Shown in pieces: positions 2,318-14,507 of a stretch of DNA of 63,427 nt. Source of the stretch: Oscillospiraceae bacterium (lineage in GTDB: Bacteria; Bacillota; Clostridia; Oscillospirales; Oscillospiraceae); contig CACWYC010000007.1 in NCBI GenBank assembly GCA_902765025.1, forward strand, positions 1 to 63,427. Direction: 5' to 3'. The notes beneath the pieces were generated by a model, which was not told the DNA's origin, made no database searches, and saw nothing but the letters and a program-made list of their open reading frames with translations. Positions within the stretch are counted from its first letter, which is position 1, and each line of letters opens with the position of its first letter. The position numbers and the translations under genes are program-made.

Positions 2318-2341
2318 CCTGTGGAGTATTTGCGCCACAGG
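2318..2341. promoter_or_regulatory. inverted repeat in the yetF-kamB divergent spacer
   Basis: A perfect 7-bp inverted repeat, CCTGTGG and CCACAGG, is separated by 10 bases in the 147-base spacer between the divergent DUF421 gene and kamB. It could be an operator. No specific regulator can be assigned. A possible -10 for kamB, TATGAT, follows at 2383-2388. Confidence 0.35.
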
Positions 2342-2431
2342 CCAAAAATATGTGCCAACCGGGGTTTCTTTTTTCGGCGGCGTATGATAACATTATCCAT
2401 TGGAACGAAACGAAGGAAAAGGAGTGGTGGT

Positions 2432-3361
2432 ATGACCGACGCCCTGCTGCAGGATCTCCACAGCGTGAAAACCATGTCCATTGTGGGCATGTGCAAAAAC
2501 GCGGGCAAAACCACGGTGCTGAACTGGTTTTTGCACCACAGCCGCCGGGACAGCGTGCTGGGCCTGACCTCCATCGGCCGCGACGGCGAGTCCACCGACG
2601 TGGTCACCGGCACGGAAAAGCCCAGCATCTACGTGCCCGCCGGCACGCTGATCGCCACCGCCAGGGATATGCTGCGGCTGTGCGACGTGACACGCGAAAT
2701 CGTCATGACCACCGGCATCCCCACCCCCATCGGCGAGGTGGTGATTCTCCGTGCCCGCAGCGACGGTTACGTCCAGCTGGCCGGCCCCTCCATCACCACC
2801 CAGCTGCAAACCGTGTCCCGCCACTTTTTCGATCTGGGGGCCCGCCAGTCGGTCATCGACGGCGCCCTGGGCCGCAAGAGCCTGGGGGCCCGGGCCGTGG
2901 CGGAGGGCGTCATCCTCTGCACCGGCGCCAGCTACAACATGAGCATGGAAAAGGTGGTGGCCGACACCGCCCACATCTACCGGCTGATGAATCTGCCCAA
3001 GGCGGAGACCATTCCGGCGGCAGGGGAGGGCCTGGGGGAGGACTTCAAGAAAAACGGTGAAGCCATGGTTACCGGTGCCCTCACCGACACCATGGTGGTG
3101 CCGCTGCTGAAGAGCGGCGTGCTGCGCCGTGGCCGCATCGTGGTGCTGGACCCCAGTAAGGTGCTGCTCACCGCCGACACCCTGGACAAGCTGGCCCTGC
3201 GGGATGTCCGTCTGGAAACGGCCCAGTCCGCCCGCACCCTGTGCGTCACCGTGAACCCCGTGTCCGCCTACGGCTGGCGGTTTGATAAAGACGCCTTTAT
3301 GGCGGCCATGTCCGAGGCGGTAGACGCCCCGGTGATCAACGTGAAGGAGGAGTTGGCATGA
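2432..3361 (+). CDS. kamB: lysine 5,6-aminomutase reactivase subunit KamB
   Basis: 309 residues. A P-loop lies near the N-terminus (MSIVGMCKNAGKTTVLN). The protein is followed, with a four-base overlap, by the MutS-like KamC, and both precede a lysine fermentation operon; this arrangement is typical of the KamB/KamC pair. These proteins are thought to reactivate the adenosylcobalamin-dependent lysine 5,6-aminomutase by exchanging damaged cobalamin, using ATP. The ATG at 2432 is preceded by an AAGGAAAAGGAG ribosome site; the upstream in-frame ATG at 2321 lacks one. The gene lies upstream of the riboswitch promoter, so it is not under lysine-riboswitch control. Assignment rests on motif, size and context. 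Confidence 0.82.
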   Translation: MTDALLQDLHSVKTMSIVGMCKNAGKTTVLNWFLHHSRRDSVLGLTSIGRDGESTDVVTGTEKPSIYVPAGTLIATARDMLRLCDVTREIVMTTGIPTPIGEVVILRARSDGYVQLAGPSITTQLQTVSRHFFDLGARQSVIDGALGRKSLGARAVAEGVILCTGASYNMSMEKVVADTAHIYRLMNLPKAETIPAAGEGLGEDFKKNGEAMVTGALTDTMVVPLLKSGVLRRGRIVVLDPSKVLLTADTLDKLALRDVRLETAQSARTLCVTVNPVSAYGWRFDKDAFMAAMSEAVDAPVINVKEELA

Positions 3362-4818
3362 TTACCGTCACCTTTGACGAAAAAGTGAAAATCGGCCTGC
3401 AATACGCCCTGGAGACCCTCCACGGCTGCTCCCCCTTTGGCCAGGAGAGAATCCGCAAGCTGCGGTTTTACACCCCGGCGGAGCGTGATGAACTGGACGT
3501 GGAGCTGGGCAACGTGGAGCGCTGCGCCCGGGCCGCCGGCGACTTAAAGGAAACCTACGATAAAATCATGGTGCTGCTGTGCCAGATTAAGGACATCCGC
3601 ACCAGCCTCCGCCGCTGCCGTGACGGGGAGACCCCCGACCACGTGGAGCTGTTTGAGATAAAGGGCTACCTCCAGCGCCTGGAGGGCCTGCGGCCCCTGT
3701 TCGCCCAGGCGGACGAGATGGTGCATTTTGAGGATTTGACTTTCCATGACCCTGCCCCTGCCCTGGCCATTCTTGACCCGGAGGCCACCGGCAGCCGTGG
3801 CTTCTACATCCCCGACAGCGCCACCGCCCGTCTCAAAGAGATTCGCCAGGCCAAGAAGGACGTGGAGGAGCACCTCTACCACGCCCAGACCGACGGGGAA
3901 AAGGACGACCTGCGCCTCAAACGCACCCGCATCTGCGCCGAGGAGGAGAGCGAGGAGATGAAGGTGCGCAAGGCTATGGGCGCGGCGCTTGCCCCACTGG
4001 CGGAGGATTTGCTGGCCGATGCCGAGTCGGTGGGCCGTCTGGACTTCATGTTGCAAAAGGCCCTGTTCGCCGTGCGCTACGGCGGCGTCCGCCCCACCAT
4101 TACGGACACGGAATTGACCCTCACCGACATGGTGAACCCGGAGCTGGTGGACTTGCTCTCCGAGCAGCACCGGGCCTTCGTGCCGGTGTCCGTGGCATTG
4201 GACCAGGGCGCTACCGTCATCACCGGCGCCAACATGGGCGGCAAATCCGTGGCCATGAAGACAGTGGCCCTGAACGTGCTGCTGCTCCACGCCGGCTTCC
4301 TGGTGTGTGCCCGGGAGGCCCGCATGCCTCTTTTCCACACGGTGAAGATGCTCTTTGACGACCTCCAGTCCATCCAGTCCGGCCTCAGCGGCTTCGGCAG
4401 CGAGATTGTCCAGTTTGAAAAGGCGCTGAACGAGGTGGAGCAGGGTTACTCCCTGTTTTTGCTGGATGAATTCGCCCGGGGCACCAACCCCGACGAGGGC
4501 GCCGTCATCGTCCAGGCCGTCACCCGGTATTTGAACGACGTCCACGCCATCTCCCTGCTCACCACCCACTACGACAAGGTGGCCGACTGCGCCCGGGCCC
4601 ACTATCAGATCATCGGTCTCCGGGACGTGGACCCCCAGGCCATCCGCAGGGAACTCTCCGTCACCGGCGAGGACGGCGTGGCCGTTATCGCCCGCCATAT
4701 GAACTACGGCCTCTACCGGGTGGAGGGCAAGTCCGACTGCCCCCGGGATGCCCTGAACATCTGCCGCATGCTCTCCCTCAAGCCGGAGATTTTAGACAAG
4801 ATAGAGCAGGGCTATTAA
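3358..4818 (+). CDS. kamC: lysine 5,6-aminomutase reactivase ATPase KamC (MutS-like)
   Basis: 486 residues. The C-terminal half is a MutS-family ATPase domain: Walker A GANMGGKSVAMKT, Walker B LFLLDEFARGTNPDEG, then LLTTHYDKVA. The N-terminal half is helical and lacks a MutS mismatch-recognition domain, so this is not a repair protein. MutS-like ATPases of this size inside lysine fermentation clusters are annotated as KamC, working with KamB on the B12-dependent aminomutase. The start overlaps the kamB stop by four bases (ATGA). The operon appears to stop here; a new promoter and the lysine riboswitch follow within 110 bases. Confidence 0.85.
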   Translation: MITVTFDEKVKIGLQYALETLHGCSPFGQERIRKLRFYTPAERDELDVELGNVERCARAAGDLKETYDKIMVLLCQIKDIRTSLRRCRDGETPDHVELFEIKGYLQRLEGLRPLFAQADEMVHFEDLTFHDPAPALAILDPEATGSRGFYIPDSATARLKEIRQAKKDVEEHLYHAQTDGEKDDLRLKRTRICAEEESEEMKVRKAMGAALAPLAEDLLADAESVGRLDFMLQKALFAVRYGGVRPTITDTELTLTDMVNPELVDLLSEQHRAFVPVSVALDQGATVITGANMGGKSVAMKTVALNVLLLHAGFLVCAREARMPLFHTVKMLFDDLQSIQSGLSGFGSEIVQFEKALNEVEQGYSLFLLDEFARGTNPDEGAVIVQAVTRYLNDVHAISLLTTHYDKVADCARAHYQIIGLRDVDPQAIRRELSVTGEDGVAVIARHMNYGLYRVEGKSDCPRDALNICRMLSLKPEILDKIEQGY

Positions 4819-4927
4819 GCCATCTTCTGTGCAGATTGACATAATATTTCCCCTTTCGCCCCGCTCTGCGGGACGAAATTTTTATTTGATTGCCAAAAAG
4901 TTATTGAGGCTATTCTGGGAAATCGCC

Positions 4928-4955
4928 TTGACAAAAGCGGGAAAAAAGCTATAAT
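4928..4955 (+). promoter_or_regulatory. sigma-A promoter of the lysine fermentation operon
   Basis: Consensus -35 TTGACA (4928-4933), a 16-base spacer, and consensus -10 TATAAT (4950-4955). The predicted start is near 4962, about 20 bases before the riboswitch P1 helix. It is the closest to consensus of the promoters I found in the window. Confidence 0.88.
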
Positions 4956-4975
4956 TTTGGGTGTAGACAATTCGA

Positions 4976-5155
4976 TATATGCAATAGAGGCGCGGAGTGC
5001 AGGGTACCTGTCGGATGAGGTACGGCCCTTGATGGCCGGCAGGGAAGGGGCGCTCCGCCGAAGGGGGGCGGCGTGCCCGAGCCGCGTCCTTGGCAGCACC
5101 GTGTAAGCGGCACTGTTGTCATGCCCTTTGTGACATGGAGCGCTATTGGTCATAA
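4976..5155 (+). promoter_or_regulatory. lysine riboswitch (L box) aptamer, predicted ON switch
   Basis: The region matches the L-box layout. P1 pairs CAATAG (4982-4987) with CTATTG (5143-5148). The conserved AGAGGCGC follows the 5' strand. P2 pairs 4992-4997 with 5053-5058 and is followed by the conserved GCCGAAGG core near 5057-5064. P3 pairs about 5068-5072 with 5081-5085. A P4 arm follows TTGGCAGC. P5 pairs TGTCA (5117-5121) with TGACA (5131-5135), followed by the conserved GGAGCGCTATTGG. The 3' strand of P1 is also part of the 5' arm of the terminator at 5140-5171, so ligand-stabilised P1 should block termination and turn the operon on. Family assignment is by motif recognition; the ON logic is inferred from the overlap. 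Confidence 0.9.
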
Positions 5156-5186
5156 CAGTGACCGATGGCGCCCTTTTGTTATTTTT
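5140..5186 (+). terminator. riboswitch-controlled intrinsic terminator
   Basis: A 13-bp stem (5140-5152 with 5159-5171, two G-U pairs) with a six-base loop is followed by a T-rich run (5174-5186). The 5' arm contains the whole 3' strand of riboswitch P1 (5143-5148), so P1 and terminator cannot form together. A second, weaker hairpin (5187-5194 with 5203-5210) lies between it and the kal ribosome site. Confidence 0.85.
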
Positions 5187-5259
5187 GACGGGGGTTCGTC
5201 AGTCCCTGTCGAAGCGTCAGCAACCATTTTGTCAGAATTTTTTTAAGGAGGAAACTACT

Positions 5260-5661
5260 ATGGAAAAGATGACATCCCTGCTGCGGCTGCGCATGAGCGC
5301 CAAGGACGCCCACTACGGCGGCAACCTGGTGGACGGCGCCCACATGGTGCACCTGTTCGGCGACGTGGCCACCGAGCTCCTCATCATGTGCGACGGCGAT
5401 GAGGGCCTGTTCTGCGCTTACGACAACATCGAGTTCCTGGCTCCCGTCTATGCCGGCGACTACATCGAGGCCTACGGCGAGATCGAGAAGATCGGCAACA
5501 CCTCCCGCACCATGAAGTTCGAGGCCCGCAAGGTCATCGTCTCCCGCCCCGACATCAGCGCCTCCGCCGCCGACGTTCTGGCCGAGCCCATCGTGGTCTG
5601 CCGCGCCCACGGCACCTGCGTCACCCCCAAGGACTGCCAGCGCAAGCCCATTGAGAAGTAA
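5260..5661 (+). CDS. kal: 3-aminobutyryl-CoA ammonia-lyase
   Basis: 133 residues, a small single-domain hotdog-fold protein as expected for Kal. It removes ammonia from L-3-aminobutyryl-CoA to give crotonyl-CoA, the last step specific to lysine fermentation. The recognisable segment is [23 protein letters not shown] near residues 10-28 and the strand [19 protein letters not shown]. It is first in the riboswitch-controlled operon, followed 15 bases later by kce. The ATG at 5260 follows AAGGAGG with good spacing; a longer frame from 5146 runs through the terminator and is rejected. The name rests on family resemblance plus complete pathway context. Confidence 0.9.
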
Positions 5662-5676: not shown

Positions 5677-6504
5677 ATGGAGAAGCTGATTATCACCGCC
5701 GCCATCTGCGGCGCCGAGGTCACCAAGGCCTCCAACCCCGCTGTGCCCTACACCGTGGAGGAGATGGTCCGTGAGGCCAAGTCCGCCTACGAGGCCGGCG
5801 CAGCCATTCTGCACATCCACGTCCGCGAGGACGACGGCACCCCCACCCAGGACCGTGAGCGTTTCCGGGTGGTGATGGACGCCATCCGCAAGGAGCTGCC
5901 CGACGTCATCATGATCCCCTCCACCGGCGGCGCCACCGGCATGAGCCCCGAAGAGCGCCTGCAGCCCACCGAGCTGTTCCCCGAGATGGCCACCCTGGAC
6001 TGCGGCACCTGCAACTTCGGCGATGAGATTTTCGACAACACCATGCCCACCATGCGGGCCTTCGGCAAGCGCATGATCGAGAACGGCATCAAGCCCGAGT
6101 ATGAGTGCTTCGAGATCGGCCACCTGGATACCATCCTCACCATGGCCCGCAAGGGTGAGGTGCCCGGCGCCCCCATGCAGTTCAACTTCGTGCTGGGCGT
6201 CAACGGCTGCACCCCCGCCACCGTGGAGAACCTGTGGTTCCTGGTGAACAAGATTCCCGCCGGCTCCACCTGGACCGTCACCGGCGTGGGCCGCAGCGCC
6301 TGGACCATGGCCGCCGCCGGCATCGCCATGGGCGGCAACGTCCGCGTGGGCTTTGAGGATAACGTGTACCTGGGCAAGGGCCAGAAGGCCGCCTCCAACG
6401 GCGAGCTGGTGGCCAAGGTGGTGCGTCTGGCCAAGGAGCTGGGCCGCGAAATCGCCACCCCCGCCGAGGCCCGCGAGATTCTCTCCCTCAAGCCCCTGCA
6501 GTAA
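5677..6504 (+). CDS. kce: 3-keto-5-aminohexanoate cleavage enzyme (BKACE family)
   Basis: 275 residues. Zinc ligands H46 and H48 lie in the motif LHIHVRED, matching His46/His48 of the characterised enzyme; a third ligand Glu lies in GFEDNVY near residue 230. Kce condenses 3-keto-5-aminohexanoate with acetyl-CoA, giving acetoacetate and 3-aminobutyryl-CoA, the substrate of Kal. The family includes many beta-keto acid cleavage enzymes with other substrates, but flanking kal and kdd make the lysine role firm. The ribosome site (GGCAGAGAGA) is weaker than those of its neighbours. The downstream gap of 47 bases carries a strong site for kdd. Confidence 0.93.
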   Translation: MEKLIITAAICGAEVTKASNPAVPYTVEEMVREAKSAYEAGAAILHIHVREDDGTPTQDRERFRVVMDAIRKELPDVIMIPSTGGATGMSPEERLQPTELFPEMATLDCGTCNFGDEIFDNTMPTMRAFGKRMIENGIKPEYECFEIGHLDTILTMARKGEVPGAPMQFNFVLGVNGCTPATVENLWFLVNKIPAGSTWTVTGVGRSAWTMAAAGIAMGGNVRVGFEDNVYLGKGQKAASNGELVAKVVRLAKELGREIATPAEAREILSLKPLQ

Positions 6505-6551: not shown

Positions 6552-7604
6552 ATGGCTGAGCTGAAAGGCAACAAGTACGGTACCCACCGCGTGATCGAGC
6601 CCAAGGGCGTTCTGACCCAGGCTGCCTGGAAAATCGACAACGATATGTCCAAGGTCTACTCCAACGAGATCGTCTGCGACGTCACCTCCCTGAACATCGA
6701 CTCCGCTTCCTTCACCCAGATCTCCGACGCCTGCGGCGGCGACGAGAAGAAGATCGGCGAGATGATCATGGGCATCGTGGCCGAGCGCGGCAAGCAGCAG
6801 AACCCCGTCACCGGCTCCGGCGGCATGTTCAAGGGCGTTGTGGCCCACATCGGCGAGGACCTGAAGAAGAAGCCCGGCTTCGACCTGAAGGAAGGCGACA
6901 AGATCGTCTCCCTGGTGTCCCTGTCCATGACCCCCCTGAAGATTGACAAGATCCTGGCCATCCACAAGGACATCGACCGCGTGGACATCATCGGCAAGGC
7001 CATCCTGTTCGAGTCCGCCCTGTACTGCAAGATGCCCGACGATATGTCCGAGGCTCTGGCCCTGGCCGCTCTGGACGTGGCCGGCGCTCCCGCCCAGGCC
7101 CGCAAGCTGCCCCACGAGGGCGACAACGTCCTGATTCTGGGCGCCAACGGCAAGTCCGGCGTGCTGTGCGGCTGGGAGGCCATGAAGAAGGTTGGCCCCA
7201 ACGGCAAGGTGGTGGGCGTTGTCCGCAACCCCAAGCAGGTTCCCGCTCTGCTGGAGCTGGGCGTGTACACCGACGTCATCGTGGCCGACTGCACCAAGCC
7301 CGTTGAGGTGATGGAAGAGGCCCTGAAGGTCACCGGCGGCAAGGAGTACGACCTGTCCATCTGCTGCGTCAACATCGAGTCCTGCGAGATGTCCGCCATC
7401 CTGCCCGTCCGCGACGACGGCCTGGTGTACTTCTTCTCCATGGCCACCTCCTTCACCAAGGCCGCCCTGGGCGCCGAGGGCATCGGCAAGGACGTCACCA
7501 TGATCGTGGGCAACGGCTATACCAAGAACCACGCCCAGATCACCCTGGACGTGCTGCGTGAGAATCCCAAGCTGCGCAAGCTGTTCGACGAGAAGTATTG
7601 CTGA
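6552..7604 (+). CDS. kdd: L-erythro-3,5-diaminohexanoate dehydrogenase
   Basis: 350 residues, the usual Kdd length. A nucleotide-binding Rossmann region is visible around NVLILGANGKSGVLCGWEAM, with a Kdd-like N-terminal domain (GTHRVIEPKGVLTQAAWKID). Kdd oxidatively deaminates 3,5-diaminohexanoate to 3-keto-5-aminohexanoate with NAD(P)+, releasing the first ammonia of the pathway. The ATG follows AGGAGG at nine-base spacing. The gene ends at 7604 and is separated from kamA by a GC-rich hairpin (7614-7643) lacking a T run, so read-through is expected. Confidence 0.93.
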   Translation: MAELKGNKYGTHRVIEPKGVLTQAAWKIDNDMSKVYSNEIVCDVTSLNIDSASFTQISDACGGDEKKIGEMIMGIVAERGKQQNPVTGSGGMFKGVVAHIGEDLKKKPGFDLKEGDKIVSLVSLSMTPLKIDKILAIHKDIDRVDIIGKAILFESALYCKMPDDMSEALALAALDVAGAPAQARKLPHEGDNVLILGANGKSGVLCGWEAMKKVGPNGKVVGVVRNPKQVPALLELGVYTDVIVADCTKPVEVMEEALKVTGGKEYDLSICCVNIESCEMSAILPVRDDGLVYFFSMATSFTKAALGAEGIGKDVTMIVGNGYTKNHAQITLDVLRENPKLRKLFDEKYC

Positions 7605-7643: not shown

Positions 7644-7691
7644 CTGCCGTACCTATCCCACTCACATTATTCATTTAAAGGAGAAGTGATT

Positions 7692-8942
7692 ATGAAGACT
7701 CGTAACGGTCTGTTTGCTGACGTTCCCGAAGAACTGTGGAACGACTGGCATTGGCAGGTTGACAACCGCGCTGAGACGGTGGAGGACCTGAAGAAGTACA
7801 TGACCCTGACTCCCGATGAGGAAGAGGGCGTCCGCAAGACCCTGGGCAAGCTGCGCATGGCTGTCACGCCTTACTATCTGTCCCTCATCGACCTGGACGA
7901 TCCCTTCGATCCCATCCGCAAGATGGCCATTCCCCGCGCCGAGGAGCTGGATTATGCCGACTATGAGGACGCCGATCCCCTCCACGAGGATACCGACTCT
8001 CCCACCCCCGGCCTGACCCACCGCTATCCCGACCGCGTGCTGCTGCTCATCACCGACCAGTGCTCCATGTACTGCCGTCACTGCACCCGTCGCCGCTTCG
8101 CCGGTCAGAACGACTGCGAGGTGCCCATGCAGCAGATCGACAAGTGCATCGAGTACGTGGCCAACCATCCCGAGGTCCGCGACGTGCTGCTCTCCGGCGG
8201 TGACGCTCTGATGGTCTCCGATGAGACGCTGGAGTACATCATCAGCAAGGTCCGCGCCATCCCCCATGTGGAGATCGTTCGCCTGGGCTCCCGCACCCCC
8301 GTGGTATGCCCCCAGCGTATCACCCCCGAGCTGTGCAACATGCTGAAGAAGTATCATCCCATCTGGCTCAACACCCACTTCAACACCCCAAAGGAGTTCT
8401 CTCCCGAATCCGCCAAGGCCTGCGCCATGCTGGCCGATGCCGGTATCCCTCTGGGCAACCAGTCTGTGCTGCTGGCCGGCGTCAACGACTGCACCCACGT
8501 GATGATGGAGCTGGTCCATGGCCTGGTGCAGATGCGCGTCCGCCCCTACTACATCTACGCCTGCGATCCCTCCCTGGGCCTGAGCCACTTCCGCACCCCC
8601 GTGTCCAAGGGCATCGAGATCATGGAGGCCCTCCGCGGCCATACCTCCGGCTACTGCATCCCCACCTTCGTGGTGGACGCTCCCGGCGGCGGCGGCAAGA
8701 CCCCCGTTATGCCCAACTACCTCATCTCCCAGACGCCTCGCAAGGTGATCCTGCGCAACTTCGAGGGCGTCATCACCTCCTACACCGAGCCTGCCAACTA
8801 TGTCCAGAACTGCCACTGCGACGTCTGCACCGGCAAGAAGAAGGTGGACAAGACCGGCGTGGCCTGGGTGGCCGAGGGGACGCTGCAGCGCTACTTGGAG
8901 CCCACCAAGCTGCTGCGTAACGAGCGTCACGTCAAGCACTAA
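7692..8942 (+). CDS. kamA: L-lysine 2,3-aminomutase (radical SAM, PLP)
   Basis: 416 residues, the same size as the clostridial enzyme. The radical-SAM cluster cysteines are C124, C128 and C131 (CSMYCRHC). The PLP lysine is K336 in APGGGGKTPVMPNY. The C-terminal cysteines CHCDVC match the zinc-binding site of KamA. It interconverts L-lysine and L-beta-lysine, the entry step of the pathway. The chosen ATG at 7692 has AAAGGAG eight bases upstream; a GTG two codons earlier is possible but less well placed. It lies between two GC-rich hairpins in the riboswitch-controlled operon. KamA is oxygen sensitive, which suits a strict anaerobe. Confidence 0.97.
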   Translation: MKTRNGLFADVPEELWNDWHWQVDNRAETVEDLKKYMTLTPDEEEGVRKTLGKLRMAVTPYYLSLIDLDDPFDPIRKMAIPRAEELDYADYEDADPLHEDTDSPTPGLTHRYPDRVLLLITDQCSMYCRHCTRRRFAGQNDCEVPMQQIDKCIEYVANHPEVRDVLLSGGDALMVSDETLEYIISKVRAIPHVEIVRLGSRTPVVCPQRITPELCNMLKKYHPIWLNTHFNTPKEFSPESAKACAMLADAGIPLGNQSVLLAGVNDCTHVMMELVHGLVQMRVRPYYIYACDPSLGLSHFRTPVSKGIEIMEALRGHTSGYCIPTFVVDAPGGGGKTPVMPNYLISQTPRKVILRNFEGVITSYTEPANYVQNCHCDVCTGKKKVDKTGVAWVAEGTLQRYLEPTKLLRNERHVKH

Positions 8943-9026: not shown

Positions 9027-10589
9027 ATGGAAAGCAAACTCGGCTTGAATTTTGATCTGGTCAATCAGGCCCGGGCCTCCGCCGCCAAGATTGCGGACGA
9101 TACCCAGCGCTTCATCGACCAGCACACCACCGTCACGGTGGAGCGCGCCGTTTGCCGTCTGCTGGGCATCGATGGCGTCAACGATATGGACGTCCCCATG
9201 CCCAACGTGCTGGTGGATCACCTGATGGCCAATGGCCTGCTGCCACTGGGCGCCGCCTGGACCATCGGTAACGCCATCATCGAGACCGGCAAGGACCCCC
9301 AGGGCGTGGCAGAGGCCATCGACGCCGGCGATGTGGACCTGAGCAAGGTCCCCGCCCATTCCGACGCGGAGATTCGCGCCGCCATTAAGCCCTATGTGGA
9401 CAAGACTATTGAGCGCATAAAGGGCAACGTGGCCAAGCGCAACGAGTTCCTGAACCGCTTCGGCGACAAGGAAGGCCCGTATCTCTATATCATCGTGGCC
9501 ACCGGCAATATCTACGAGGATATTATCCAGGCCAAGGCCGGCGCCAAGCAGGGCGCCGACATCATCGCCGTCATCCGCACCACCGGCCAGTCCCTGCTGG
9601 ACTACGTGCCCTACGGCGCTACCACCGAGGGCTTCGGCGGCACCTACGCCACCCAGGAGAACTTCCGCCTGATGCGCGCCGCCCTGGACGAGGTGGGCGA
9701 GGAGCAGCACCGCTATATCCGCCTGTGCAACTATTGCTCCGGCCTGTGCATGCCCGAAATCGCCGCCATGGGCGCCCTGGAGCGCCTGGACGTCATGCTC
9801 AACGACGCCCTCTACGGCATCCTGTTCCGCGACATCAACATGCAGCGCACCATCGTGGACCAGTTCTTCTCCCGCGTCATCAACGGCTACACCGGCGTCA
9901 TCATCAACACCGGTGAGGACAACTACCTCACCACCGACGACGCCATCACCTCCGCCCATACCGTGCTGGCCTCCCAGTTCATCAACGAGGCCTTCGCCAA
10001 GAGCGCCGGCATGCGTGAGGAGCAGATGGGTCTGGGCCACGCCTTCGAGATGGACCCCTCCGTGGAGAACACCTTCCTCTACGAGCTGGCCCAGGCGCAG
10101 ATGGCCCGGGAAATTTTCCCCAAGGCGCCCCTGAAGTATATGCCTCCCACCAAGTTCATGACCGGCAACATCTTCCGCGGCCACATCCAGGATGCCCTGT
10201 TCAACATGGTCACCATCCTCACCGGCCAGAAGCTGCACCTGCTGGGCATGATGACCGAGGCCATCCACACCCCCTTCATGTCCGACCGCGCCCTGTCCAT
10301 TGAGAACGCCCAGTATATCTTCCGCACCATGAAGGACCTGGGCAGCGAGCTGACCTACAAGGAGAACGGCATCATCCGCAACCGCGCCAACGAGGTGCTG
10401 GTGAAGGCCACCGACCTCCTGAAGGAGATCGAGACCCTGGGCCTGTTCACCACCATCGAGAAGGGCATCTTCGCCGACGTGAAGCGCCCCAAGGACGGCG
10501 GCAAGGGCCTGGCCGGCGTGGTGGTGAAGGACGACAAGTACTTCAATCCCTTTGTGGAAGAGATGAAAGGTAAGGTGGCAGGAGAATGA
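9027..10589 (+). CDS. kamD: lysine 5,6-aminomutase alpha subunit
   Basis: 520 residues, close to the known alpha subunit length of about 516. KamD forms the TIM-barrel subunit that binds adenosylcobalamin and PLP with KamE, and moves the terminal amino group of beta-lysine to give 3,5-diaminohexanoate. Recognisable segments include LPLGAAWTIGNAIIETGKDPQ-like text near residue 75 and RLCNYCSGLCMPEIAAM near residue 233. It overlaps kamE by four bases, consistent with one-to-one subunit production. Identification rests on length, sequence resemblance and position. Confidence 0.95.
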   Translation: MESKLGLNFDLVNQARASAAKIADDTQRFIDQHTTVTVERAVCRLLGIDGVNDMDVPMPNVLVDHLMANGLLPLGAAWTIGNAIIETGKDPQGVAEAIDAGDVDLSKVPAHSDAEIRAAIKPYVDKTIERIKGNVAKRNEFLNRFGDKEGPYLYIIVATGNIYEDIIQAKAGAKQGADIIAVIRTTGQSLLDYVPYGATTEGFGGTYATQENFRLMRAALDEVGEEQHRYIRLCNYCSGLCMPEIAAMGALERLDVMLNDALYGILFRDINMQRTIVDQFFSRVINGYTGVIINTGEDNYLTTDDAITSAHTVLASQFINEAFAKSAGMREEQMGLGHAFEMDPSVENTFLYELAQAQMAREIFPKAPLKYMPPTKFMTGNIFRGHIQDALFNMVTILTGQKLHLLGMMTEAIHTPFMSDRALSIENAQYIFRTMKDLGSELTYKENGIIRNRANEVLVKATDLLKEIETLGLFTTIEKGIFADVKRPKDGGKGLAGVVVKDDKYFNPFVEEMKGKVAGE

Positions 10590-11374
10590 GCAGCGGACTG
10601 TATAACACCCATAAAATCGATTTTGATACCACGCTGGACCTGACCCGCCTGAAGCCCTACGGCGACACCATGAACGACGGCAAGGTGCAGACCAGCTTCA
10701 CCCTGCCCGTCAAGGACGACGCCCGCGGCGAGGAAGCCGCCCGTCAGATCGCCAAGAAGATGGGTCTGGAAGAGCCCAACGTGGCCTACCATGCCCCCCT
10801 GGATAAGGAGTTTACCTTCTACGTGGTGTACGGAAGCTGTGTCCACAGCGTCAACTACGAGGATATCCACGTCATCACCGTGGAGTCCGAGGTCATGAGC
10901 ATGGAGGAGACCAACGACTACATCCGGGAGCACATCGGCCGCAAGGTAGTCATGGTGGGCGCCTCCACCGGCACCGACGCCCATACCGTGGGCATCGACG
11001 CCATCATGAACCGCAAGGGCTTCGCCGGCCACTACGGCGTGGAGCGCTACGAGATGGTGGAGGCCTACAACCTGGGCTCCCAGGTGCCCAACGAGGAGTT
11101 CATCAAGAAGGCCGTGGAGCTGCATGCCGACGCCCTGCTGGTGTCCCAGACTGTGACCCAGAAGGACGTCCACATCCAGAACCTGACCAACCTCATCGAG
11201 CTGCTGGAGGCCGAGGGCCTGCGTGATAAGTTCGTGGTGGTCTGCGGCGGCCCCCGCATCACCCATGAGCTGGCCAAGGAGCTGGGCTATGACGCCGGCT
11301 TCGGCGCCGGCACCTATGGCGACGACGTGGCCAGCTTCGTGGTCACCGAGATGGTCAAGCGCGGCATGAAATAA
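10586..11374 (+). CDS. kamE: lysine 5,6-aminomutase beta subunit (B12/PLP)
   Basis: 262 residues with a C-terminal cobalamin-binding domain. The B12 motif DxHxxG is D131-A-H133-T-V-G136; His133 is the expected axial ligand. K144 in NRKGFAG matches the PLP-binding lysine of the characterised beta subunit exactly by number. It partners KamD and is coupled to it by a four-base overlap. It is last in the riboswitch-controlled operon and is followed by a strong terminator. The enzyme inactivates during turnover, which explains the KamB/KamC pair upstream. Confidence 0.97.
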   Translation: MSSGLYNTHKIDFDTTLDLTRLKPYGDTMNDGKVQTSFTLPVKDDARGEEAARQIAKKMGLEEPNVAYHAPLDKEFTFYVVYGSCVHSVNYEDIHVITVESEVMSMEETNDYIREHIGRKVVMVGASTGTDAHTVGIDAIMNRKGFAGHYGVERYEMVEAYNLGSQVPNEEFIKKAVELHADALLVSQTVTQKDVHIQNLTNLIELLEAEGLRDKFVVVCGGPRITHELAKELGYDAGFGAGTYGDDVASFVVTEMVKRGMK

Positions 11375-11539: not shown

Positions 11540-11602
11540 ATGCCTGTTAAAAAAATAGCGAACACTATTTTTGGGAAACAGTAACAACAAGGAGGACTAC
11601 AA

Positions 11603-12295
11603 ATGGCAAAGAAACCTGTTCTCACTGCCGCTGAGGCAGCGAAGATGATCCCGGAAGGCGCCACCATTCTGTGCGGCGGCTTCCTGGCTTGCGGTCAGGC
11701 CCGCGCAATCGTCAAAGAGCTGGTGAAGCTGGGTACCAAGAATCTGACTCTGGTGGCCAATGATATGGCCCGTGAGACCGGCCCCATGGGCGAGAAGTAC
11801 TTCGGCATCGCCGAGCTGATTCATAACCACCAGGTCAAGCGCATCATCGCCACCCACGTGGGCATGACCCCCGAGGTGGGCCAGCAGAGCGCCGAGGGCA
11901 CACTGGAGGTCAACCTGATCCCCCAGGGCTCCCTGGCCGAGTGCGTTCGCGCCGGCGGCGCCGGCCTTGGCGGCGTGCTGACTCCCGTGGGCGTGGATAC
12001 GCTCATCGAGCAGAGCCCCCTGTGCCTGGGCAAGCAGACCATCGACGGCAAGGAATACCTGCTGATGAAGCCCATCCGCGGCGACTTCGCCCTGCTGGGC
12101 ACCTATAAGTGCGATGAGTACGGCAACTGCTGGTACAAGGGCACCATGCGCAACTTCAACACGGTCATGGCCACCGCTGCCGACACCGTGATCGCTGAGT
12201 GCGAGTACATTGTTCCCGTTGGCGAGATCGAGCCCGAGAACATCCACACCTACGGCATGTGCGTTGACTACATCGTGGAAGGAGAAAGAAAGTAA
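11603..12295 (+). CDS. atoD: butyryl-CoA:acetoacetate CoA-transferase, alpha subunit
   Basis: 230 residues, a family I CoA-transferase A subunit. The glycine-rich segment ATILCGGFLACGQ near residue 20 is in the expected CoA-binding position, and the later GTYKCDEYGNCWYKG matches the family pattern. With the beta subunit it exchanges CoA between butyryl-CoA and acetoacetate, producing butyrate and the acetoacetyl-CoA needed to close the lysine route. Related pairs use acetate or 3-oxoacids, so substrate is inferred from position directly after the lysine genes. The stop and the next start share one base. Confidence 0.85.
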   Translation: MAKKPVLTAAEAAKMIPEGATILCGGFLACGQARAIVKELVKLGTKNLTLVANDMARETGPMGEKYFGIAELIHNHQVKRIIATHVGMTPEVGQQSAEGTLEVNLIPQGSLAECVRAGGAGLGGVLTPVGVDTLIEQSPLCLGKQTIDGKEYLLMKPIRGDFALLGTYKCDEYGNCWYKGTMRNFNTVMATAADTVIAECEYIVPVGEIEPENIHTYGMCVDYIVEGERK

Positions 12296-12963
12296 TGGAA
12301 AAGTCTGAGATCAAGGCCTTTATTGCCAAGCGCTGCGCCAAAGAGCTGAAGGACGGCGATGTTGTCAACCTGGGTATCGGCCTGCCCACCATGATCCCCG
12401 CTTATCTGCCCGAGGGCGTTGAGCTGATCATCCATGCCGAGCTGGGCATCGTGTCCGCCGGCGCCACCCCCAAAGAGGGCGATGCCAACTACGATCCCTA
12501 CCACGTCATCGACGCCGGCGGCGGTGTTGCTTCCGTGGCTTACGGCGGCGGCTTCATCGACTCCGCCACCAACTTCGGCCTGATCCGCGGCGGTCACGTG
12601 GACGCCTGCTTCCTGGGCGCCCTGGAGGTGGACGCTGAGGGCAACCTGGCCAACTGGATCATCCCCGGCAAGAAGATGCCCGGCATGGGCGGCGCTATGG
12701 ACCTGTGTGTCGGCGCCCGCAACTGCATCGTGTGCATGGAGCACACCGCCAAGGGCAACCCCAAGATCCTCGAGAAGTGCCGCCTGCCCCTGACCGCTTC
12801 CCACTGCGTCAACAAGATCATCACCGAGATGTGCGTGCTGGAAGTCACCGATAAGGGCCTGCTCATGACCGAGATCAACCCCGAGTTCACCGTTGACGAT
12901 GTGAAGGCCGCCACCGCTGCCCCCATCACCGTCGCCGAGAACCTGAAGTCCATGCTGGACTGA
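12295..12963 (+). CDS. atoA: butyryl-CoA:acetoacetate CoA-transferase, beta subunit
   Basis: 222 residues, the catalytic B subunit of a family I CoA-transferase. NLGIGLPT (25-32) is the family motif. E49 in HAELGI is at the position of the catalytic glutamate, which forms the glutamyl-CoA intermediate; most relatives read ENG there, so the Leu at 50 is a small variation. It starts on the last base of the alpha stop codon. A strong terminator follows 18 bases after the stop. The butyrate-forming role is inferred from context and known lysine-fermenting relatives. Confidence 0.87.
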   Translation: MEKSEIKAFIAKRCAKELKDGDVVNLGIGLPTMIPAYLPEGVELIIHAELGIVSAGATPKEGDANYDPYHVIDAGGGVASVAYGGGFIDSATNFGLIRGGHVDACFLGALEVDAEGNLANWIIPGKKMPGMGGAMDLCVGARNCIVCMEHTAKGNPKILEKCRLPLTASHCVNKIITEMCVLEVTDKGLLMTEINPEFTVDDVKAATAAPITVAENLKSMLD

Positions 12964-12981: not shown

Positions 12982-13015
12982 AATGACGCCCGCCGAAAGG
13001 CGGGCGTCATTTTTT
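12982..13015 (+). terminator. terminator of atoD-atoA
   Basis: A 13-bp perfect stem (12982-12994 with 12999-13011) closed by a GAAA tetraloop and followed by a T run. It separates atoA from the convergent nhaC-like gene. Confidence 0.93.
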
Positions 13016-13027
13016 ATCCAAAATCCA

Positions 13028-14386
13028 TCATTTCCGCCTGGCCTGCCGCAGTGCGGCGTACACGATGGCCGCCGCCACCATGGCAAGGTTATAGAACGTG
13101 TAGGGCAGATATTCCGCCGTGGCCACCCCCAGCACCCCGGCCATGTAGATGCCGCAGGTGTTCCAGGGCACCAGCGCCGAGGTCAGCGCCCCGCCCACAC
13201 CGATGGCAAGGGAGAGGTCCCGCCGCTCCATCCCCGCTTTGTCAAAGGCGGAGGCGTACATCCGCCCCGGCAGGGCGATGCCGATATACTGGTCCGGCAG
13301 CACCACGTTCACCAGGGCGCAGGTGGCCACCGTGCAGGCCATCAGCGGCACGAAGCCCCGAAGACGGTGAACGACAGGGGAGAGCAGCACCTCCATCTGC
13401 CCCGTCTTTTCCATCACGCCGCCGAAGGCCATGGCCAGCACCACGATGGACACGGAGTACAGCATGGAGGCGAGGCCGCCGGCGGTCAACAGTTGGTCCA
13501 CCATGGCCACACCGGTCTGCCCCGCGTAGCCGCCAAAGGCGCAGCCCATCACCTCCGCCGCCGTTGCGCCCTGCACCGCCACGGCGTACACGCCCCCCGC
13601 CACGCAGCCCAGGAAAAGGCTGGGGATGGCGGGGATTTTGCACAGGATGCACGCCAGCAGCACCGCCAGCGGCAAAAAGGCGGGCAGCCCCAGCCGGAAA
13701 GCGGATTGCAGCGTGTCCGACATGGCCGCCGCGCTGTCCGCCGCCGCGCCGCCGCCGTACCGCCAGCCCAGCACGCCAAAGGCCCCCAGGCATACCGCAA
13801 AGGTGGGCAGCGCCGCCTTGGCGATGTTGCGTATGCTGGCAAACACGTCGATTTCCGCCATGGCCGCTGCCAGCACCGTGGAGTCCGCCAGAGGGGAGAG
13901 CTTGTCGCCCACGTAGGCCCCGGAGATGACGGCCCCCGCCGCCATGGGCAGCGGCACGCCCATGGCCCGGGCCATGCCCATAAAGGCGATGCCTACCGTG
14001 CCCGCCGTGCCCCAGGAGCCCAGGGCCATGGACAGCAGGGCACACACCAGCATGGCGCTGGCCAGGAACAGCCTCGGCGAGATGAGCCGCAGCCCGTACA
14101 CCACCATGGCCGGCACCGTGCCCGCGGCGATCCACACCCCCACCAGCACGCCGATGAGCAGCAAAATCAGCACCGCCTCCAGCGACCGGCTGATGCTGTC
14201 CACCATGCCCCGGCAGATGTCCTCCCATTTCCAGCCGTACAGCAGCGCAATGGCCGTCGCCACGCCGCAGCCCAGCAGCAGCGGGATCTGGGGCTCGCTG
14301 TGCCATACCACCAGGCACACAAACATAATGCCCGCCGTGAGGATGAGCCCCAGCAGGGCCGCCCAAAAGGGAATCTTTTTCACCAT
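13028..14386 (-). CDS. NhaC-family Na+/H+ antiporter
   Basis: 452 residues, strongly hydrophobic, about 10-12 predicted membrane helices. The segments ISGAYVGDKLSPLADST and ALGSWGTAGTVGIAF match the NhaC family signature. Members exchange sodium for protons, and some relatives exchange organic anions or amino acids. It sits convergent to the CoA-transferase genes at the edge of the lysine locus, where such antiporters recur in lysine fermenters, so a role in ion balance during amino acid fermentation is plausible but not shown. No dedicated lysine permease is visible nearby. It is separated from the next gene by a 121-base divergent spacer. Confidence 0.88.
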   Translation of the reverse strand: MVKKIPFWAALLGLILTAGIMFVCLVVWHSEPQIPLLLGCGVATAIALLYGWKWEDICRGMVDSISRSLEAVLILLLIGVLVGVWIAAGTVPAMVVYGLRLISPRLFLASAMLVCALLSMALGSWGTAGTVGIAFMGMARAMGVPLPMAAGAVISGAYVGDKLSPLADSTVLAAAMAEIDVFASIRNIAKAALPTFAVCLGAFGVLGWRYGGGAAADSAAAMSDTLQSAFRLGLPAFLPLAVLLACILCKIPAIPSLFLGCVAGGVYAVAVQGATAAEVMGCAFGGYAGQTGVAMVDQLLTAGGLASMLYSVSIVVLAMAFGGVMEKTGQMEVLLSPVVHRLRGFVPLMACTVATCALVNVVLPDQYIGIALPGRMYASAFDKAGMERRDLSLAIGVGGALTSALVPWNTCGIYMAGVLGVATAEYLPYTFYNLAMVAAAIVYAALRQARRK

Positions 14387-14507
14387 TTTTCAATAACGCT
14401 TCCTTTTTCTTTCTAATATATCCATCATAGTCCAAAAAGCCCTTGCTGTCAAACACCCCCGGGATTATAATGGTGAATATAATGGTGAAGAAAGGATGTG
14501 ACGCCCC

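Follow-up and report, generated by a model that had tools for sequence, protein, structure and literature searches.

A lysine riboswitch whose P1 strand is shared with a terminator arm, probably an ON switch for lysine fermentation genes in an Oscillospiraceae bacterium

Lysine riboswitches located upstream of kal have been described in Clostridium sticklandii and Fusobacterium nucleatum, and in Thermoanaerobacter a lysine riboswitch precedes an operon made of a regulator gene, kal and kce; both arrangements are called positively regulating in the available portion of PMC5584792. These systems resemble the one analyzed here in that an L-box aptamer stands upstream of kal-type lysine fermentation genes. 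However, that portion of the paper does not give the anatomy of P1 and terminator, and the switch studied here is followed by the six-gene run kal-kce-kdd-kamA-kamD-kamE. Concerning the mechanism, one sentence in the available text of PMC2258182 (2007), citing Rodionov et al. 2003, states that parts of terminator stems are buried by some lysine riboswitches that follow ON logic, which is the same mechanism as that proposed below. According to the same text, adenine and glycine ON riboswitches likewise bury a piece of the terminator stem, whereas their ligands and aptamer folds differ. The class is not new, as lysine riboswitches before kal and lysine ON logic are both in print, and the original prediction, made from the letters of the DNA, was right in stating that catabolic L-box elements had already been proposed in other anaerobes (PMC5584792 and PMC2258182, as far as their available text goes). 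In the literature searched, part of it available as excerpts, we found no comparative three-strand test of lysine ON riboswitches, and the comparative evidence for the present switch goes beyond what we found in print there. Likewise, the mostly open literature, in part excerpted, yielded no experimental proof of a natural lysine ON switch, an engineered one being indicated by its title.

The DNA analyzed, hereafter the window, is a stretch of 63,427 nucleotides of an Oscillospiraceae bacterium (contig CACWYC010000007.1, assembly GCA_902765025.1). In its kal leader the 3' strand of the L-box P1 helix doubles as a terminator arm, and lysine would very probably close P1 and thereby free transcription into the six genes.

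Leader and gene neighbourhood of the switch

The covariance-model search (cmscan) that accompanied the original prediction as a proposed check identified RF00168 as the sole Rfam match above the gathering score within the window, with 91.7 bits against a cut-off of 30 (E 7.4e-23) and a span of model positions 1-182 of 182 (Table 1). The predicted L-box aptamer was thus recovered, although its extent had been given as 4976-5155 and the match runs from 4977 to 5153. The claimed consensus promoter at 4928-4955 was borne out at 12/12 positions. No second lysine riboswitch was found in the rest of the genome, which is 97.88% complete. The RF00168 core segments AGAGGNGC, GCCGAA, TGTCAT and TGGAGNGCTA are all present in the window row (4/4), and most core positions are invariant or nearly so across the columns of alignment A1. 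When the stretch 4976-5155 was folded alone, the minimum-energy structure lacked P1 and was comparable to those of shuffled sequences (z -1.0; 30 of 200 shuffles equally good). Since this stretch folds like shuffles, it is the covariance match, and not folding energy, that carries the aptamer call.

Table 1. Coordinates of the switch and of the surrounding genes in the window
Feature	Position	Strand	Evidence
Sigma-70 promoter match, TTGACA-N16-TATAAT	4928..4955	+	12/12 consensus matches
Lysine riboswitch aptamer (L-box, RF00168), P1-P5	4977..5153	+	cmscan 91.7 bits, full-length
P1 5' strand CAAUAG	4982..4987	+	cmscan alignment
P1 3' strand CUAUUG (switching strand common to P1 and terminator 5' arm)	5143..5148	+	
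L2 segment GGUACG, candidate kissing partner of L3	5019..5024	+	search of two loops
L3 segment CGUGCC, candidate kissing partner of L2	5072..5077	+	search of two loops
Predicted intrinsic terminator hairpin, 14 bp, 4-nt loop	5140..5171	+	-23.4 kcal/mol, z -6.6
U-rich terminator tail CCTTTTGTTATTTTT	5172..5186	+	sequence
Shine-Dalgarno-like AAGGAGG of kal	5245..5251	+	sequence
kamB-kamC reactivase genes, upstream of switch	2321..4818	+	NF052386 305.3 bits, NF052383 496.7 bits
kal, 3-aminobutyryl-CoA ammonia lyase	5260..5661	+	NF052388 193.3 bits, cut-off 160
kce, 3-keto-5-aminohexanoate cleavage enzyme	5677..6504	+	NF052387 420.6 bits, cut-off 382
kdd, 3,5-diaminohexanoate dehydrogenase	6552..7604	+	NF052381 249.9 bits, cut-off 200
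kamA, lysine 2,3-aminomutase	7686..8942	+	TIGR03820 594.7 bits, cut-off 525.4
kamD, lysine 5,6-aminomutase alpha	9027..10589	+	NF052384 909.9 bits, cut-off 600
kamE, lysine 5,6-aminomutase beta	10586..11374	+	NF052385 409 bits, cut-off 280
CoA-transferase gene pair, downstream of kamE	11603-12963		

In the cmscan alignment P1 is a six-pair helix formed by 4982-4987 and 5143-5148. Each of the six nucleotides in its 3' strand is also paired inside the 5' arm of the terminator. The segment 5138-5187, folded alone, reached -23.4 kcal/mol (z -6.6), a value equalled by none of 200 shuffles, and its U-rich tail has interruptions. The terminator that had been claimed at 5140-5186 is accordingly resolved into a 14-bp hairpin (5140-5171) and its tail; the P1 3' strand does lie within the 5' arm, as predicted, but this arm ends at 5153 and not at 5152. 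Strict terminators were defined by at least 7 pairs, a loop of at most 10 nucleotides, -9 kcal/mol or better and a U run. Under this rule the window leader has a single terminator within 130 nt, which overlaps the P1 3' strand, and none placed wholly downstream of that strand as in an OFF layout. A search of loops L2 and L3 found a complementarity of six pairs (GGUACG/CGUGCC), a hint only as its chance rate is uncalibrated; the same uncalibrated search left 6 of 40 rows without a six-pair match. The available text of PMC2258182 notes that the kink-turn is absent from some lysine riboswitches.

A ligand other than lysine, for example beta-lysine or another intermediate of the pathway, has to be considered at this point, as a catabolic switch could equally sense an intermediate and a covariance score is silent on specificity. 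However, 13 highly conserved nucleotides named in the available part of PMC3764141 (in T. maritima numbering G9-A10-G11-G12, G14, C15, G77-C78-C79-G80-A81, G163 and C166) are kept in the window according to a mapping done by hand that left 8 more unmapped, and the window score falls within the range of 89.2-120.6 bits found among the lysine-riboswitch matches listed. Another ligand is in our opinion very unlikely.

Concerning the genes under control, the six predicted downstream of the switch all score above their NCBIfam cut-offs. The reactivase genes kamB and kamC precede the switch and are outside its control; a site resembling a terminator (4854-4873) separates kamC from the promoter. On the other side, kamE and the CoA-transferase genes are 228 nt apart, and this gap contains a hairpin that has a short T run. 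Because kamBC come before the switch and this gap and hairpin follow kamE, the run kal-kce-kdd-kamA-kamD-kamE is most likely the part that is governed by it. The CoA-transferase genes may belong to the kal transcript, but their membership was dropped as a certainty in view of the gap with its hairpin and T run. The original claim that the conversion of lysine to butyrate stands under the switch is therefore kept for the six-gene run, does not extend to kamBC and may or may not take in the CoA transferases past the gap. An inverted repeat, AAAAATAG-N6-CTATTTTT, is found at 11551-11572 just before the first CoA-transferase gene and is a possible operator or hairpin. The CoA-transferase genes are followed by a hairpin with a T run and by a convergent NhaC-like transporter gene (13031-14386, minus strand), which at 369.5 bits is close to the TIGR00931 cut-off of 370. 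A plus-strand ORF at 12983-14416 was rejected as a gene, having no NCBIfam match and being overlapped by this NhaC-like ORF. In the cmscan of the window the NhaC-like gene has no lysine riboswitch, and 8 of the 60 comparator riboswitches described below precede members of its Pfam family.

Strand sharing among lysine riboswitches

We compared 41 kal-linked aptamers in 39 leaders (the window, 21 genome-contig loci, 11 loci of the window's family and 8 aptamers in 6 genomes of the phylum) with 60 comparator lysine riboswitches, namely 30 loci from the best matches listed and 30 from the phylum sample, which do not represent a random draw. The 41 include L002, a near-copy of the window; L124, which repeats L002, was left unused. 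Searches over more than 40 genomes used the stricter filters of Infernal and may miss weak aptamers. The ON layout was scored when the first strict terminator contained at least 4 of the 6 P1 3' nucleotides. The strict rule replaced a laxer finder that had called long hairpins running from P1 to a downstream terminator 'ON' in many comparators.

All 41 kal-linked aptamers, the window included, have the ON layout, and so have 10 of 10 further kal-linked aptamers found with cmscan and judged by the same rule. The later ten are not ten independent trials because at least five are near-copies (L221 of the window, L224 of L006, L215 of L024, and L210 and L211 of L201). By contrast, none of the 60 comparators has the ON layout by the strict rule, and 54 of them do have a strict terminator. 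In 50 the whole of it lies beyond the P1 3' strand, in most cases beginning 20-64 nt after the start of that strand; in four (L177, L187, L188 and L192) the only strict terminator starts upstream, and six have none. These other lysine riboswitches thus share the aptamer family with the window but differ in that the P1 3' strand is in no terminator 5' arm (60/60, strict rule). The direct sharing of a strand by P1 and terminator, put forward in the original prediction as an ON design, agrees with these counts (41/41 and 10/10 kal-linked against 0/60 others), and the ON interpretation is strongly supported by this comparison of sequences across loci.

A conventional OFF riboswitch, in which lysine would favor termination and low lysine would allow expression, would be expected to show the geometry of the 50 comparators. 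In the window, however, the P1 3' strand itself is in the terminator 5' arm, so that a P1 closed by ligand excludes the terminator, and a shut-off of lysine degradation by lysine would presumably make little metabolic sense. OFF logic was dropped as excluded by the strand-sharing geometry, and we regard it as extremely improbable.

The first reading frames downstream of the comparators, picked mechanically and scanned against Pfam, encode transport proteins in 33 cases and enzymes of lysine or aspartate-family biosynthesis in 18. The transport frames belong to solute-binding families 3 (19) and 5 (2), NhaC-type transporters (8), amino-acid permeases (3) and a Na-Ala symporter (1), and the biosynthetic ones are semialdehyde dehydrogenases (5), lysA-type decarboxylases (8), amino-acid kinases (2), dapA (1), dapF (1) and diaminopimelate dehydrogenase (1). 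The others are PEP carboxykinase (3), a thioredoxin-like [2Fe-2S] protein (1) and frames with no Pfam match (5). On a laxer look, the four comparators L177, L187, L188 and L192, all of one family (f59), show short ON-like hairpins. Since these four are ON-like, the layout is not confined to kal; it goes with catabolic genes, though not with kal alone. In L177, L187 and L188, from three kal-bearing genomes of one family, the short ON-like hairpin stands before a frame for an ATP-type PEP carboxykinase. Another unusual target was seen at L195:1911-3180, where the lysine riboswitch is upstream of the thioredoxin-like [2Fe-2S] protein and a NuoF-like gene.

With respect to its distribution, the aptamer is directly upstream of kal in all 9 of the 10 sampled members of the window's genus that carry kal, and the tenth has neither. 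Beyond the genus, this arrangement was found in 21 of 80 genome-contig loci (the best 80 of 418) and, within the window's family, in 20 of the 35 further kal loci that were scanned, and in the phylum sample the aptamer is linked to a kal operon in 6 of 77 other genomes with kal. Most kal genes are without such a switch. One kal-linked ON-type lysine riboswitch (L202:225-1949) has as its first gene a sigma-54 regulator most like PrdR, a layout which resembles the Thermoanaerobacter arrangement in the available text of PMC5584792. A promoter match of 12/12 is found at most 80 nt upstream in 27 of the 41 kal-linked aptamers, a count fitting an always-on promoter with the RNA as gate.

In a three-strand test, each P1 3' nucleotide was checked for pairing with its partner in the P1 5' strand and with its partner in the terminator 3' arm across 40 aptamers (L002 was dropped here, from the counts on A1 and from the core-A count given below). 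Both pairs are kept in 213 of 240 cells, while 2000 column shuffles gave 185.8 +- 2.7 with a maximum of 198, kinship being uncorrected. At the last P1 3' position the base is other than G in 15 of 40 aptamers, and in 10 of these 15 both partners still pair. On the MAFFT alignment A1 (40 rows), pairing in P1 reaches 90.8%, with 14 cells showing a double change (5.3 in shuffles), and in the lower 9 bp of the terminator it reaches 96.7%, with 24 such cells (4.0 in shuffles). As judged from the aligned rows, the shared strand co-varies with both of its partners, with the proviso that the shuffles leave relatedness in place.

These results bear on the possibility that the leader is a fixed attenuator hairpin accompanied by a decayed relic of an aptamer, with expression set by the promoter alone. 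A relic would suit the shortness of P1 (6 bp), the margin of 18 kcal/mol by which the terminator exceeds P1 in stability, and an aptamer stretch whose folding is no better than that of shuffles. A relic would not be expected, however, to score 91.7 bits, to co-vary in P1, shared strand and terminator over 40 aptamers and to be kept at every one of the 9 kal genes among the 10 sampled genus members. We find this alternative very improbable indeed.

Folding energetics and second closing strands

The reading that we favor is that lysine binding would hold P1 closed, that the terminator would thereby be kept from forming and that the polymerase would then read into the six genes. The free energies are -5.4 kcal/mol for P1 and -23.4 kcal/mol for the terminator. 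Partition functions were calculated by transcript length with P2-P4 held folded and with an energy bonus on P1 as a stand-in for lysine, and they agree with the earlier claim that the two helices exclude each other. With no bonus, the probability of P1 is at most 0.05 at every length tested and that of the terminator is 0.99 from 5171 onwards. A bonus of 8 kcal/mol raises the P1 probability to 0.95 or more as far as 5167. In the full-length transcript the terminator is still favored at a bonus of 12 kcal/mol and mostly so at 16, and P1 prevails only at about 20. Because the full-length terminator beats P1 even at 12 kcal/mol, kinetic trapping during folding is a prerequisite for switching. Control would be kinetic in that lysine would have to bind while the polymerase travels from 5148 to about 5171, and P1 would have to hold until the polymerase clears the U tract. 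We infer that lysine is the ligand, that P1 closes before about 5171 is transcribed and that the operon is thus induced by lysine, in which case a protein regulator would be unnecessary at this step.

Some relatives show a further element. In 13 aptamers picked by motif (L009, L024, L026, L033, L077, L113, L114, L115, L116, L122, L205, L215 and L218), all in leaders before kal or a kal operon, a second copy of the aptamer 3' closing strand, approximately ATGRAGCGCTRTTC, follows the first terminator. A strict second terminator is located at copy 2 in 8 of the 13 (L024, L026, L033, L116, L122, L205b, L215 and L218), one is called by the laxer finder only in L113 and L114, and none was found at copy 2 in L009, L077 and L115. 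Copy 2 keeps 4-6 of the 6 P1 pairs in the 13 aptamers. Compared by eye with the P5 5' strand of the same locus, it is an exact fit in 8 and needs wobble pairs in 5, and the fit, also by eye, holds where CATC or CATAT replaces CATG. A shuffle test on 41 leaders flagged a second copy in 5 at p <=0.01, one of which is a true second aptamer. The window leader has no second strand copy in this test, its best candidate having 7/15 matches (shuffle p 0.975). Copy 1 lacks the core A that precedes G163 in 7 of 13 two-copy members, against 0 of 34 single-copy members. This A is absent as well from 6 of 60 comparators and from 1 of 3 further tandem aptamers, and a single clade seems to account for five of the seven losses among two-copy members.

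A tentative and rather doubtful reading of these data is that lysine ON switches of catabolic genes form a lineage of their own, with the window as its single-gate form and with some relatives gating two stops in turn by handing over a strand. The lysine-bound aptamer would in such leaders pass its closing strand (the P5 3' end, the junction and the P1 3' strand) from copy 1 to copy 2, the latter being located in most cases within the 5' arm of a second terminator. Common descent or a plain duplication of the copies would equally explain the two-copy pattern.

True tandem lysine aptamers were observed in two genomes of the phylum (G689 and G732), at L205:313-757 and L206, each aptamer with its own ON-type terminator. 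The tandem of L205 precedes kdd, kamB, kamC, kamD and kal, so that the reactivase genes are there downstream of the switch. Double lysine riboswitches are already in print, according to the available text of PMC9481103.

Lysine induction and biological meaning

In Intestinimonas AF211 the proteins of the lysine pathway are induced about 10-fold on lysine, with the exception of Kal, which was undetected (available portion of PMC4697335). No riboswitch was found named in that portion, and our literature searches returned nothing joining Intestinimonas, lysine and riboswitch. Two Intestinimonas records of our set (L024 and L026) have the ON layout before kal. The induction in AF211 is correlative support for an ON switch. 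The same portion of PMC4697335 presents the fermentation of lysine to butyrate as one way for gut bacteria to make a host-signaling fatty acid from an amino acid. If the proposed mechanism is true, lysine would gate its own fermentation route through an RNA that stands behind a consensus promoter. ON and OFF forms built on one aptamer and differing in the position of the terminator would then represent a clean pair for the evolution of riboswitch logic.
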